From the NCBI GenBank assembly GCA_021323775.1, contig JAJPKK010000316.1:1-64000 (forward strand): DNA of 64,000 nt, in the 5' to 3' direction. A program made the translations under genes and the position numbers. Positions 8,969 through 55,396 of this stretch are shown one piece after another; the stretch's first letter is position 1, and the number at the start of each line of letters is the position of its first letter. Origin of the DNA: Hyphomicrobiales bacterium. GTDB lineage: Bacteria > Pseudomonadota > Alphaproteobacteria > Rhizobiales > Xanthobacteraceae. The notes under the pieces are model-generated. The model had not been told where the DNA came from, did not search any database, and saw only the letters and a list, made by a program, of their open reading frames with translations.

Positions 8969-10087
8969 ATGCGCCAGGAGGTTATCGCCCGGATCGTTCA
9001 CGCCATGCTTGACGTCGGACTCGACGCAATCGTCGCCGTCTCCCCGGAAAATTTCGCCTACGTCACCGGCTTCCTGTCGCCGACCCAACCGCTCATGCGT
9101 TGGCGCCATGCCATGGCGCTCGTCACCGCGGACGCGCAGGCCTCGCTCGTCAGCGTGGATATGGAGCAAAGCACAATTCGCGCCAAGGCGCCGCCTGGCG
9201 CCGAAATCGCGGTGTGGCGCGAATTTCAATTCGACGCAATGACAGTGCTCGCCGATCTCATGAACAAGCATAAGCTTACCGCTTCCCGCGTCGGCATTGA
9301 GATGGATTATCTTCCGGCCGCAGATTTCGCGGCACTTCAGGAGTTGCTGCCTCTGGTGCGTTTCGTTCCGGCGCAGCGGCTCCTGTCGCGGCTGCGCGAG
9401 ATCAAAACGCCAGCAGAGATCGAGGTCCTGCGCCGTCTGTCGCGGATCGCAGACCGGTCCATTACCGAAGCCTGCCGTGCGGCCGGCGCCGGATCGAGCG
9501 AGATGGATATCGCTGCCGCGCTGACACGCGGCGTTTACGAGCAGGGCGCCGAATATTTCAAGCTCATGATCGTGGCGACCGGCGAACGCAGCGTGTTTCC
9601 CAATGTCGGTCCGTCGGAGCGCGTGCTAAAAAAAGGCGACATCTGCCGCGTCGAGATCTTCCCAATGATCGCCGGCTATCACGCGGGCGTCTGCCGCACC
9701 GCCGCAATCGGCGCCGCGCCGCCGCAGGCGGAACGCATCTGGGCCAAGCTGACCGAGTGCAAGCATCTCCTCCTGGACGCGATCAAGCCAGGGGCCTCCA
9801 CCAGGAAGATCTATGAGATCTATCGCGACAAACTCGCCGAGCTTGACTTGCCTCCGATCTCATTCGTGGGCCACGGCATCGGCTTGCACCTCCACGAAGA
9901 TCCCTACCTCGGCCCGACTGAAGACCAGCCGCTCGAGGCCGGAATGGTGCTCGGCATCGAACCGCTCGTTTATGAGACCGGATTCGGTTTCGGGATGCAG
10001 AACAAGGACATGCTGCTGGTGACGCAGGGCGGCTGCGAAATCCTGTCCGATTATCTTGACACCGACGCGTTGCTGATCGTGGCGTGA
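8969..10087 (+). CDS. M24-fold protein, creatinase-like (metal ligands altered)
   Basis: This 372-residue protein has a creatinase N-terminal domain (about 1-145) and a pita-bread M24 domain. The His motif GHGIGLHLHEDPYLG is present at about residue 299. Where M24 peptidases have two Asp ligands, it reads VEIFPMIAGYHAGVCRTA, so both are replaced (Glu and Gly). The last Glu ligand also appears lost (GFGMQNKDMLLVT). Creatinase is the known metal-free branch, so an amidinohydrolase or amidohydrolase activity is more likely than Xaa-Pro peptidase. The gene is embedded in the enolase-superfamily/Bug operon. Confidence 0.85.
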   Translation: MRQEVIARIVHAMLDVGLDAIVAVSPENFAYVTGFLSPTQPLMRWRHAMALVTADAQASLVSVDMEQSTIRAKAPPGAEIAVWREFQFDAMTVLADLMNKHKLTASRVGIEMDYLPAADFAALQELLPLVRFVPAQRLLSRLREIKTPAEIEVLRRLSRIADRSITEACRAAGAGSSEMDIAAALTRGVYEQGAEYFKLMIVATGERSVFPNVGPSERVLKKGDICRVEIFPMIAGYHAGVCRTAAIGAAPPQAERIWAKLTECKHLLLDAIKPGASTRKIYEIYRDKLAELDLPPISFVGHGIGLHLHEDPYLGPTEDQPLEAGMVLGIEPLVYETGFGFGMQNKDMLLVTQGGCEILSDYLDTDALLIVA

Positions 10088-34810: not shown

Positions 34811-35281
34811 TCAGGCCGCTTTGCTGGCTTCCAGGACCTTCGCAGCCTTGCCGCCGGCGTGCGCGCCGCCGATCTCGATGCGCCGCGGCTTCATCGCCTC
34901 CGGCAGCTTCCGCACGAGGTCGATCTGCAGGAGTCCGTTGTCGAAATTGGCTCCTGCCACCTCGACGTAGTCAGCCAGGCTGAAGTGGCGCTCGAAGGGC
35001 CGCGCCGCGATGCTGCGGTAGATGTAATCCTGCGCATCGGCCGACGCGTTGGTGTTGCCCGTAACCGTCAGCCGGTTTTCCTGAACCGTGACTGTGATGT
35101 TCTCGGGCGAAAAACCTGCGAGTGCGAGCGAAATCCGATAGCTCTCGTTACCGGTCCGGACGATGTCGTAGGCCGGATAGCTATCCTCGCCTTCATAGAG
35201 ATCGATGTTGTTGATGATGTCGAACAGACGGTCGAAGCCGATGGTTGACCGCCACAGAGGAGAAAAGTCGAAGTTTCTCAT
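34811..35281 (-). CDS. Small heat-shock protein, Hsp20/IbpA family
   Basis: The 156-residue chaperone begins MRNFDFSPLWRSTIGFDRLF, the class A rhizobial sHsp N-terminus. The alpha-crystallin domain includes YPAYDIVRTGNESYRISLAL and ARPFERHFSLADYVEV. The IxI-like C-terminal region is PRRIEIGG. It holds unfolding proteins for refolding. The leader shows a consensus-like RpoH promoter and a ROSE-type ribosome-binding-site hairpin, so both transcription and translation are probably heat-controlled. Confidence 0.95.
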   Translation of the reverse strand: MRNFDFSPLWRSTIGFDRLFDIINNIDLYEGEDSYPAYDIVRTGNESYRISLALAGFSPENITVTVQENRLTVTGNTNASADAQDYIYRSIAARPFERHFSLADYVEVAGANFDNGLLQIDLVRKLPEAMKPRRIEIGGAHAGGKAAKVLEASKAA

Positions 35282-35369
35282 AGCCACATCCTCCATTGAG
35301 CAACATGGTACGAGCGGTGCGCCAGACCTGCGCCGGCGCTGGCGCCGGGCCTCAAACGGCGCCCGGCGA
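35282..35369 (-). promoter_or_regulatory. Putative ROSE-type RNA thermometer in the hsp20 leader
   Basis: In the minus-strand leader, TTGCT (35299-35303) can pair with the Shine-Dalgarno AGGA (35289-35292). A bulged G in the TTGCT arm gives the hallmark of ROSE elements in Bradyrhizobium small heat-shock genes. Farther 5' a strong GC hairpin forms from GCCGGGCGCC and GGCCCGGC. The element would begin at the predicted start site near 35369. Melting on heating would free the ribosome-binding site. Confidence 0.65.
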
Positions 35370-53406: not shown

Positions 53407-54924
53407 ATGCAGATTGAACCTTCCGCCGGCGCGTTCGCCGCCGCCTATCGGCGCGGCGTCGCCCAAGTCGTGTGGACCACACTGGTGGCCGACCTTGAGA
53501 CGCCGGTCTCCGCTTTTCTCAAGACCGGGGCTGACAAGCCGCTGAGCTTCCTTTTCGAATCGGTCGAGGGCGGGGCGGTGCGCGGCCGCTATTCGATCAT
53601 CGGCCTCGATCCCGACGTGGTGTGGCGCGCCCGCGGCGACAGGGCGGAAATCAACCCCACCGCGCGGCAGCACCAGGACGCGTTCCGCCCCTGCGGCGAG
53701 CCCCCGCTTAGGTCGCTGCGCAGCTTCATCAACGAAAGCCGCTTTGTGCTGCCGGACAGCCTGCCGCCGATGGCCGCCGGCGTTTTCGGTTATCTGAGCT
53801 ATGACATGGTTCGCCTGATGGAGGATCTGCCGCCGCCCAATCCTGACCCGATCGGGATACCGGACGCGATCCTGGTGCGGCCGACCGTGGTGATGATCTT
53901 CGACTCGGTGCTCGACACGCTCACGCTGGTGACGCCGGTGCGCCCGGCCACGGGATTGCCTGCGGACGCAGCGCTGGCGCACGCCATCGACCGGCTGACC
54001 GCCGTGGTCGACGCGCTGGACAGGCCGCTCCCCAGGGAGCCGGCCAGCGCTGCGGCTGCGGCGCTGAAAAATACTCCGGTCTCCAATACGGAGCCGGCGG
54101 AGTTCCGCGCCATGGTCGCGCGGGCAAAGGACTACATTGCGGCCGGAGATATTTTCCAGGTCGTGCTGGCGCAGCGTTTCGAAGCGCCCTTCGCGCTGCC
54201 GCCCTTCGCGCTCTACCGGGCGCTGCGCCGGGTCAATCCGGCGCCGTTCCTGTTCTATCTCGACTACGCCGGATTCGCGGTGGCGGGCTCAAGCCCGGAG
54301 ATTCTCGTGCGCACGCGCGGCGACACGGTGACGATCCGGCCGATCGCCGGCACCAAGCCGCGGGGATCGACGCCCCATGAGGACAAGGCGCTCGAAGACG
54401 AGCTTCTGGCCGACCCGAAGGAGCGGGCCGAACACCTGATGCTGCTCGACCTCGGCCGCAACGATGTCGGCCGGGTTGCCGCCATCGGCACCGTCAAGGT
54501 CACCGACCAGTTCTTCATCGAGCGCTACAGCCAGGTGATGCACATCGTCTCGAACGTGGAGGGCAGGCTTGATCCGCGCCACGACGCCCTCGACGCGCTC
54601 GCCGCCGGGTTCCCGGCCGGAACCGTATCCGGTGCGCCGAAAGTGCGCGCTATGGAAATCATCGACGAGCTGGAGAAAGAAAAACGCGGCCTCTATGCCG
54701 GCTGTGTCGGGTATTTTTCCGCGGCCGGCGACATGGACAGCTGCATTGTGCTGCGCACCGCCCTTATCAAGGACGGCAAGATGTATGTCCAGGCCGGCGC
54801 CGGCATTGTGGCGGATTCCAACCCGGACAGCGAGCAGCAGGAATGCGTCAACAAGGCCAGGGCGTTGTTCCGGGCCGCCGAAGAGGCGCGCCGATTCGCC
54901 AGCGAAGCCGGGAAGGGGCAATAG
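53407..54924 (+). CDS. trpE: Anthranilate synthase component I
   Basis: The 505-residue enzyme has the N-terminal tryptophan feedback site (LFESVEGGAVRGRYSIIG). The chorismate-binding catalytic domain includes GDIFQVVLAQRFEAP, GSSPEILVRTRG, RPIAGTKPRG, EHLMLLDLGRNDVGRV, AGFPAGTVSGAPKVRAMEII and a late QAGAGIVADS. It makes anthranilate from chorismate with TrpG glutamine amidotransferase. trpG is not next to it; instead repeats and a small gene follow. The start at 53407 begins near the family start, with a weak ribosome-binding site. Confidence 0.96.
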   Translation: MQIEPSAGAFAAAYRRGVAQVVWTTLVADLETPVSAFLKTGADKPLSFLFESVEGGAVRGRYSIIGLDPDVVWRARGDRAEINPTARQHQDAFRPCGEPPLRSLRSFINESRFVLPDSLPPMAAGVFGYLSYDMVRLMEDLPPPNPDPIGIPDAILVRPTVVMIFDSVLDTLTLVTPVRPATGLPADAALAHAIDRLTAVVDALDRPLPREPASAAAAALKNTPVSNTEPAEFRAMVARAKDYIAAGDIFQVVLAQRFEAPFALPPFALYRALRRVNPAPFLFYLDYAGFAVAGSSPEILVRTRGDTVTIRPIAGTKPRGSTPHEDKALEDELLADPKERAEHLMLLDLGRNDVGRVAAIGTVKVTDQFFIERYSQVMHIVSNVEGRLDPRHDALDALAAGFPAGTVSGAPKVRAMEIIDELEKEKRGLYAGCVGYFSAAGDMDSCIVLRTALIKDGKMYVQAGAGIVADSNPDSEQQECVNKARALFRAAEEARRFASEAGKGQ

Positions 54925-55046
54925 ACGGGATACCGCAATCGCGTGATGATGCGTGATTGCGCTCACACAACGGCGCGGCATTGTTCCAGCATATGCTGGA
55001 TCGTCAGAGGCCACGCTGCGGCTGAAAAGCCTGCATGCTCCTGCGT

Positions 55047-55216
55047 GGACTCTCCGGTCAGGTAGCCCCGGCCCCCGCGGCAATCGGGGACGGAAGACCG
55101 GGGCCGGCGCTCTCTGAATGGAGAGCGGGGTGGACTCGCCCTGCTTGGTGGCCCCGGCCCCCGCGGCAATTGGGGACGGAAGACCGGGGCCGTTGCTCTC
55201 TGAATGGAGAGCTAGC
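55047..55216. repeat. Tandem pair of structured ~85-bp units downstream of trpE
   Basis: Two 62-base cores, 55065-55126 and 55151-55212, differ at only three positions, and the spacing of the copies is 86 bases. Each core folds into GCCCCGG...CCGGGGC with an inner CCCC/GGGG stem and an unpaired ACGGAAGA side. A second hairpin, GCTCTC-TGAATG-GAGAGC, follows. No T-run follows either copy, so they are not ordinary terminators. They may encode a duplicated small RNA or an mRNA processing element of trpE or of the opposing small gene. Confidence 0.7.
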
Positions 55217-55273
55217 GAAGCTTAACCGCATCAGGCGCGCCTTAATGTGAGCTGGATCACATTTGTGACGTTA

Positions 55274-55396
55274 TCAAAGCAGGAAAATGAGCAGAGCGAC
55301 CAGTGCAAAGCCGCCCGCGAGCATCAACCAGTCTCCCGAATTGAGGCCAAGAAGCCGCCCCTCGGCCATCACGCGCAAGTCCACATTCGGTGACAT
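55274..55396 (-). CDS. Small 40-residue membrane protein
   Basis: A short frame encodes MSPNVDLRVMAEGRLLGLNS, then GDWLMLAGG and a hydrophobic helix ending ALVALLIFLL. AAGGAAA lies six to seven bases before the ATG at 55396. Start, ribosome-binding site and a single C-terminal membrane helix make it credible. It resembles small inner-membrane peptides I have seen annotated in Bradyrhizobium, but I know no function. It is easily missed because of its size. Confidence 0.6.
   Translation of the reverse strand: MSPNVDLRVMAEGRLLGLNSGDWLMLAGGFALVALLIFLL

Follow-up and report, generated by a model that had tools for sequence, protein, structure and literature searches.

Tandem copies of a two-hairpin element between trpE and a small convergent open reading frame in a Hyphomicrobiales bacterium: a candidate multicopy small RNA family on the minus strand

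Introduction

The LhrC small RNAs (sRNAs) of Listeria are described, in the portions of the source used here, as multicopy RNAs in which UCCC motifs in the loops base-pair with a G-rich stretch that precedes a start codon (PMC4132741). In the alphaproteobacterium Caulobacter, GsrN is presented, in the relevant parts of its report, as belonging to the EcfG general stress response and as pairing with katG through an exposed loop rich in cytosine, and its blastn matches are confined to the Caulobacteraceae (PMC5869019). The sections consulted on the alpha-r14 or cuckoo RNAs depict hairpins in series and an anti-Shine-Dalgarno C-rich loop with the loop motif CCUCCUCCC (PMC10746234, PMC3927594, PMC4504443), while those on AbcR1 and AbcR2 depict tandem sRNAs in one intergenic region, with CU-rich anti-Shine-Dalgarno motifs in unpaired regions (PMC7143759). 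Finally, Br-REP1 and Br-REP2 of Bradyrhizobium appear in the cited sections as intergenic hairpin elements, one of them lying between convergent genes (PMC5082802).

Here we describe a tandem element found in a 64,000-nucleotide stretch of a Hyphomicrobiales genome, the whole of which is referred to as the window. The explanation that we favor, with moderate confidence, is that the element is a tandem pair belonging to a multicopy family of minus-strand sRNAs, that it is transcribed on its own and that its C-rich loops probably target G-rich mRNA sites in trans. In the extracts of the open-licence PMC literature that were covered, no such element is described.

Results

Organization of the tandem element and its surroundings

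The two copies, of 66 nt each, are 94% identical and are repeated with a period of 86 bp, which is the length of the full repeat unit (55045-55130 and 55131-55216). The differences between the units are clustered after TGGACTC and at the unit end, with the 66-nt core nearly unchanged; the sequence flanking the core is far more diverged between the copies than the core itself. A preliminary description of this DNA, made from the sequence alone, had reported two 62-nt cores that differ at three positions and keep the stems GCCCCGG/CCGGGGC and GCTCTC/GAGAGC, and our analysis agrees on both points. It had also located the pair between trpE and a 40-residue protein, which is correct, with trpE assigned by Pfam and the 40-codon open reading frame (ORF) convergent to it. 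The features of the locus are listed below, with the scores of model R3, which is introduced in the next section.

53407..54924, plus strand: trpE (anthranilate synthase I, by Pfam), convergent with the putative RNA
55061..55126, minus strand: putative RNA copy A, promoter-distal, R3 52.9 bits, E 2.6e-6 (the copy is an R3 training sequence); hairpin 2 at 55109-55126, linker GCC at 55106-55108, hairpin 1 at 55064-55105, ACC at 55061-55063
55127..55146, minus strand: spacer of 20 nt separating the two copies, preceding copy A in the direction of the RNA, without a TANNNT box at promoter distance
55147..55212, minus strand: putative RNA copy B, promoter-proximal, R3 58.7 bits, E 2.1e-7 in its own genome (the copy is an R3 training sequence); hairpin 2 at 55195-55212, linker AAC at 55192-55194, hairpin 1 at 55150-55191, ACC at 55147-55149
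55162..55179, minus strand: apical part of hairpin 1 in copy B, CCGUCCCCAAUUGCCGCG, with a C-rich apex, candidate pairing site
55219..55224, minus strand: -10-like hexamer TAAGCT, from -12 to -7 relative to base 1 of copy B, of the TANNNT pattern
55246..55261, minus strand: CRP/FNR-type palindrome TGTGATCCAGCTCACA, centered at -41.5 from base 1 (55212) of copy B
55274..55396, minus strand: 40-codon ORF, likely a membrane protein, upstream of the putative RNA on the same strand

The 40-codon ORF has no Pfam or PHROG match. Among 198 genomes, it found matches at an E value of ≤0.01 in four, comprising a paralogue in its own genome (38 codons, 39% identity, L077 1498-1614, minus strand) and hits in three other family genomes. 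A ten-pair hairpin without a T-run is predicted just past the trpE stop codon, at 54935-54960. In the readable loci among 30 trpE regions (L043-L072, own genome and 29 relatives), drawn from 94 genomes with a trpE match, no such element was seen at trpE in the relatives, and the 3' flank differs.

At gathering score, Rfam 15 gave no match to the element in the window; below threshold, the element region matched mir-4435 (22.8 of 58 bits) and two weaker entries, and the same scan of six homologous loci (L214 and L380-L384 were left out) returned mir-583 only (26 of 80 bits). The sole window match at the Rfam gathering score is a ROSE thermoregulator (RF00435) at 35275-35366 on the minus strand, with 60.5 bits against a gathering score of 45.

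Distribution of related copies

Plain DNA searches of 61 relatives and of 391 family genomes revealed no convincing relative beyond the own genome, since they returned short weak matches only, in 16/61 genomes at E ≤ 0.1 and in 15/391 at E ≤ 0.01 (own genome included in both counts). Collections of plasmid and phage records gave partial weak matches in 17 and 4 records, respectively, at E ≤ 10, none covering more than 80% of the query. The blastn matches in one genome (L010 and L025 in G002) look, by reading, like coding sequence reading IGDGRPGP and were taken as coincidence.

Covariance models extended the set. R1, built from the two window copies and run over the 391 family genomes, produced matches at E ≤ 1 in 18 of them, own included. 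One of these, G339:C85, has the same two-hairpin layout, and its element sequence is identical to that of JANWKN010000084.1, a Pseudolabrys sp. MAG (L186 = L083); the other R1 alignments examined looked like chance. Both hairpins are also carried by a viral contig, L214, where a scan of five proteins against PHROGs identified one terminase large subunit and one repressor-like regulator, the other three having no match. The window pair, G339:C85 and L214 were combined into a four-copy model, R2, which disclosed five new places scoring between 31.8 and 63.8 bits: G339 has a second copy (63.8 bits), the own genome has one more (G000:C176, 44.3 bits), and G004, G029 and G091 have one each. At E ≤ 0.5, R2 matched 5/391 family genomes, own included, and among 397 genomes drawn from the order it matched the own genome only. 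The minus-strand model R3, made of nine sequences, was run on 18 genomes with 150 candidates scored in each; the five known carriers among them had been chosen because they were matched by R2. R3 added G004:C611 (42.6 bits), G004:C399 (36.8), G029:C263 (33.2) and G004:C580 (32.7), and at E ≤ 1 it matched 6/18 genomes, the sixth (G093) at background level.

In total, 13 copies were collected, namely, 12 that R3 matched with 32.7-66.4 bits, including the window pair, and L214 with 71.5 bits; one of them is borderline, and nine of the 13 form the R3 training set. The weakest copy counted, L383, reaches 32.7 bits and folds with a z score of -2.33. The carriers are one phage contig, four other family genomes and the own genome, where scoring of 150 candidates yielded six R3 matches at E ≤ 1, of which three exceed 50 bits. 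The large searches were limited to 12 to 13 first-look candidates per genome; a failure to find the element elsewhere therefore says little, and the known distribution is a lower bound.

The copies lie at unlinked, intergenic sites and are patchily distributed. A multicopy, intergenic and patchy occurrence of this kind, with R2 matches in five family genomes (own included) and four R3 places in G004, could also be that of a REP-like dispersed palindromic DNA repeat devoid of RNA function. Such repeats, however, would be expected in dozens to hundreds of copies, against the few found per genome here, and the strand-specific G-U pairing and the -10 boxes at promoter spacing reported below also speak against them. 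Moreover, the published Br-REP1 has, according to the cited part of its description, a different consensus and about 200 sites (PMC5082802). We therefore consider a REP-like repeat improbable and retain the sRNA family as the preferred reading.

The background of R3 was set by 98 control loci, many chosen for a GGCCCCG hairpin, which reach at most 27.6 bits. Because a viral locus with hairpin 1 only (L218, dropped) scores 28.8 bits, above these controls, matches below about 30 bits are doubtful. L256, with both hairpins recognizable by eye but only 27.3 bits, was dropped too, and G093 (24.1 bits), the minus-strand copy L386 of G000:C237 (24.3 bits) and G000:C343 (26.7 bits, hairpin 2 missing) were left out as being at or near background. 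The plus copy of G000:C237, L384, is likewise at or near background with 28.1 bits; despite this score, it enters the -10, motif and pairing-cell counts and the later folds. L384 (3525-3592, plus strand) and L386 (3244-3326, minus strand) are weak, divergent candidates about 200 bp apart; L384, whose hairpin-2 stem is entirely different, has a favorable fold (z -6.17).

Hairpin 1 alone is common and was therefore not used as evidence. In particular, the pattern GGTGGCCCCGRCC...YCGGGGCCRY occurs in at least 118 stretches of genome contigs, many of them actinobacterial, a shorter version occurs in 18 viral stretches, and the perfect GGCCCCGAC hairpin occurs in at least 120 viral stretches. Pattern-derived loci were kept only if both hairpins were present, namely, L083 (= L186) and L214. 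Among the remaining viral patterns, one had a sole match, inside an ORF (L093); one gave 11 stretches, with hairpin 1 in L214 only; another gave five, all without hairpin 1; one further pattern gave no stretches; and the last gave five, none with an R3 match.

Gene context of the copies

In gene calls made around eight loci other than the window, the neighbors vary, including a cytochrome P450 with an amino-acid-kinase-type gene, an ABC substrate-binding protein, an enoyl-CoA hydratase, an EamA transporter and an inositol-monophosphatase gene. In four loci (the window, G000:C176, G004:C466 and L214), the next downstream gene or ORF is convergent, so that the RNA is not a leader of the next gene there, an arrangement that speaks for a stand-alone unit; the convergent ORF beside the L214 copy has no family match. 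A leader role is possible at G339:C85, because an ATG lies 25 nt downstream of the element, near the contig end. Related small ORFs of the NRDPRRFNSLEEAEQF type are found upstream of both G339 copies (L367 1741-1929, plus strand, and L368 around 9238-9342), which suggests a duplicated cassette of ORF plus RNA, or of a larger piece, in that genome. Related small proteins of the LLEMAE.W type occur near the G029 copy (L370 521-685 and 1516-2079, both on the minus strand).

The adjacency of the same four copies to convergent gene or ORF ends is compatible with a bidirectional terminator or 3'-end stabilizer between trpE and the 40-codon ORF, whose hairpins would stop RNA polymerase or 3' exonucleases. 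Two members (L381 and L383) have U-rich stretches after hairpin 1, and the abundance of perfect GGCCCCGAC hairpins across viral contigs points in the same direction. In the window, instead, no GC stem with the U-tract of an intrinsic terminator was called in the element, in agreement with the lack of a T-run already pointed out in the preliminary description; the closest terminator-like site (55294-55316, minus strand) falls within the 40-codon ORF. Furthermore, termination or stabilization needs no hairpin 2, no C-rich apex and no -10 box at a fixed upstream distance. We thus regard this explanation as unlikely in comparison with a trans-acting sRNA.

Structure, covariation and strand

On the minus strand, the RNA reads 5'-hairpin 2, a linker of mostly 2 to 3 nt, hairpin 1, and then ACC or a similar sequence. 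Hairpin 2 is short, and hairpin 1 is long with a C-rich apex; all 14 members that were folded form both of them on the minus strand. Across nine minus-strand sequences and 18 pairs, 160/162 cells are paired, a count that leans towards structure because 7/9 of the aligned sequences came from structure models or hairpin patterns. The covariation score is 0.486 versus 0.281 in shuffles, with 0/500 shuffles reaching 0.486, and it is at most 0.174 when the alignment is slid. Two-sided changes affect 6/18 pairs (24/500 shuffles reach six); in further pair types, the alignment does not exceed the shuffles (473/500 reach the observed number). The compensatory changes include those from GGCCCCG/CGGGGCC to GGUCCCG/CGGGACC in one stem and from GCUCUC/GAGAGC to GCCUUU/AAAGGC in the other; the earlier models knew the earlier stem sequences only, and the second version of each stem was added by later members. 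Compensatory changes in homologues, which the preliminary description had named as its own test, are thus found in both stems.

Standard pairs fill 246/252 cells on the minus strand (21 of them G-U) versus 229/252 on the plus strand in the 14 members, L384 included. G-U pairing places the RNA on the minus strand, and the conserved structure is that of the minus strand. The folding z scores are -2.63 (copy A) and -4.48 (copy B) on the minus strand and -1.32 and -1.93 on the plus strand; in seven homologues, they range from -4.7 to -7.5 on the minus strand and from -1.7 to -5.05 on the plus strand, and this strand difference is due partly to base composition, the absolute energies being close. 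Five later members have minus-strand z scores of -2.33 to -7.77. L362 folds slightly better on the plus strand (-41.9 versus -40.6), and the entire intergenic region folds better than its shuffles on the plus strand (z -4.44). A joint transcript is predicted to be able to fold across both window copies.

The preliminary description had read the element on the plus strand and had considered, besides a tandem sRNA, a sponge for an RNA-binding protein, with a CsrA homologue as the partner to look for. The four ANGGA sites on which this proposal was based do exist on the plus strand of the window locus, two per copy, but the covarying RNA is on the minus strand, ANGGA is missing on the plus strand in 9/12 non-window members, and no CsrA hit in the genome reaches the Pfam cut-off of 27 bits, the best one scoring 14.3. 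A plus-strand CsrA-type sponge is hence extremely improbable. What endures of the earlier interpretation is a structured tandem sRNA fitting no known family, given that the stems covary and that Rfam has no match at gathering score; the ANGGA sites and the CsrA-type protein partner do not.

The hairpin-1 stem is the best-kept part of the element, and the loops vary in length and sequence among members. The C fraction of the apical part of hairpin 1 is 0.50-0.67 in 12/14 members (0.39 in L383 and 0.32 in L384), a run of at least four C's is present there in 13/14 members, and 9/14 contain GUCCCC at some position of the element. The hairpin-2 loop of the window copies has no C-run. With repeated C-runs in the loops and doubled copies, the minus-strand RNA might also be imagined to sequester a protein, e.g., Rho or another RNA-binding protein. 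No analysis indicated a protein partner, however, and the length and sequence of the loops differ between members, which makes a minus-strand sponge a reading of low probability beside pairing with mRNAs.

Promoter and activator motifs

With +1 set at the first base of hairpin 2, a TANNNT box starts between -13 and -11 in 8/13 loci, compared with a mean of 0.31 loci and a maximum of 2 in other three-base upstream windows. The proportion is 7/12 without L365, which is similar to L083 in its upstream region, and the -10 box is missing in 5/13 loci. At copy A, a -10 box at promoter distance is absent, and this copy probably shares the transcript of copy B.

TGTGA-N6-TCACA has a single match in the 64-kb window (0.02 expected), and four TTAA-N7-TTAA sites lie ≤150 bases upstream of L083, L362 and L381 (0.02 expected over 13 regions, by mononucleotide shuffles), both motifs having been sought after the sequence had been read. 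The -41.5 center of the window palindrome fits the spacing of class II CRP-dependent promoters, and TTAA-N7-TTAA upstream of these three loci presumably represents a CtrA-type box.

Discussion

The two-hairpin structure, its covariation, the strand preference, the recurrence at unlinked sites and the -10 signal at a fixed distance are computationally supported. It is possible to outline how such an element would operate. Transcription would start at base 1 of hairpin 2 in copy B (55212), from a promoter that combines a weak -10 box with an activator site of the CRP/FNR type centered at -41.5, and read-through of both copies would probably generate a transcript of about 150-170 nt; we infer both RNA production itself and its activation by a CRP-family protein. 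The C-rich loops would then bind other mRNAs by pairing at G-rich sites that resemble Shine-Dalgarno sequences, changing the translation or stability of these mRNAs, and the tandem doubling would offer more pairing loops per transcript. Trans pairing seems the likeliest mode of action, because the layout, with its own promoter signals, several copies and C-rich loops, resembles that of LhrC and GsrN.

A broader scenario can be put forward as a tentative speculation: one sRNA body may have been copied to unlinked sites and to a phage that is apparently temperate, with a separate promoter and master regulator for every copy (CRP-type at the tandem locus and CtrA-type at three others), so that one C-rich module would report carbon and cell-cycle state to shared mRNAs. 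The combination of CRP-type with CtrA-type sites ahead of the same RNA body, together with the copy on a phage contig, raises the question of how sRNA paralogues are rewired. More generally, the bacterial family to which Pseudolabrys belongs gains a structured RNA family that is supported by covariation and unmatched in Rfam 15, and for which a testable model of structure, start site and activator sites is now available.

Comparison with known systems

Br-REP1 and Br-REP2, in the sections available, have another consensus, and their sites number about 200 and at least 50 per genome, respectively, versus the handful found here. The tandem arrangement of sRNAs in one intergenic region is shared with AbcR1 and AbcR2; different from the element, which has no Rfam match, these measure 114 and 120 nt and are given three stem-loops each in the part of the source cited. 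The alpha-r14 or cuckoo RNAs, as portrayed in the cited excerpts, share with the element the series of hairpins (two to four in those RNAs, two here), the C-rich loop and the occurrence in alphaproteobacteria. Their motif CCUCCUCCC is, however, absent from the element, and even CCUCC occurs in only 2/14 members; moreover, in the excerpts their stems vary and their loop is fixed, whereas in the element the hairpin-1 stem is the best conserved.

LhrC shares with the element the several copies per genome and the C-rich loop motifs, but it belongs to another phylum, and the element, a computational prediction, has GC-rich stems; no sequence relation is claimed. GsrN, like the element, is alphaproteobacterial and has a C-rich loop, the pairing with a G-rich mRNA being that of GsrN; different from GsrN, the element is a two-hairpin unit of another kind, with CRP- or CtrA-type sites at its loci. 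While kinship to LhrC and GsrN is not claimed, the analogy suggests that the element may work as they do.
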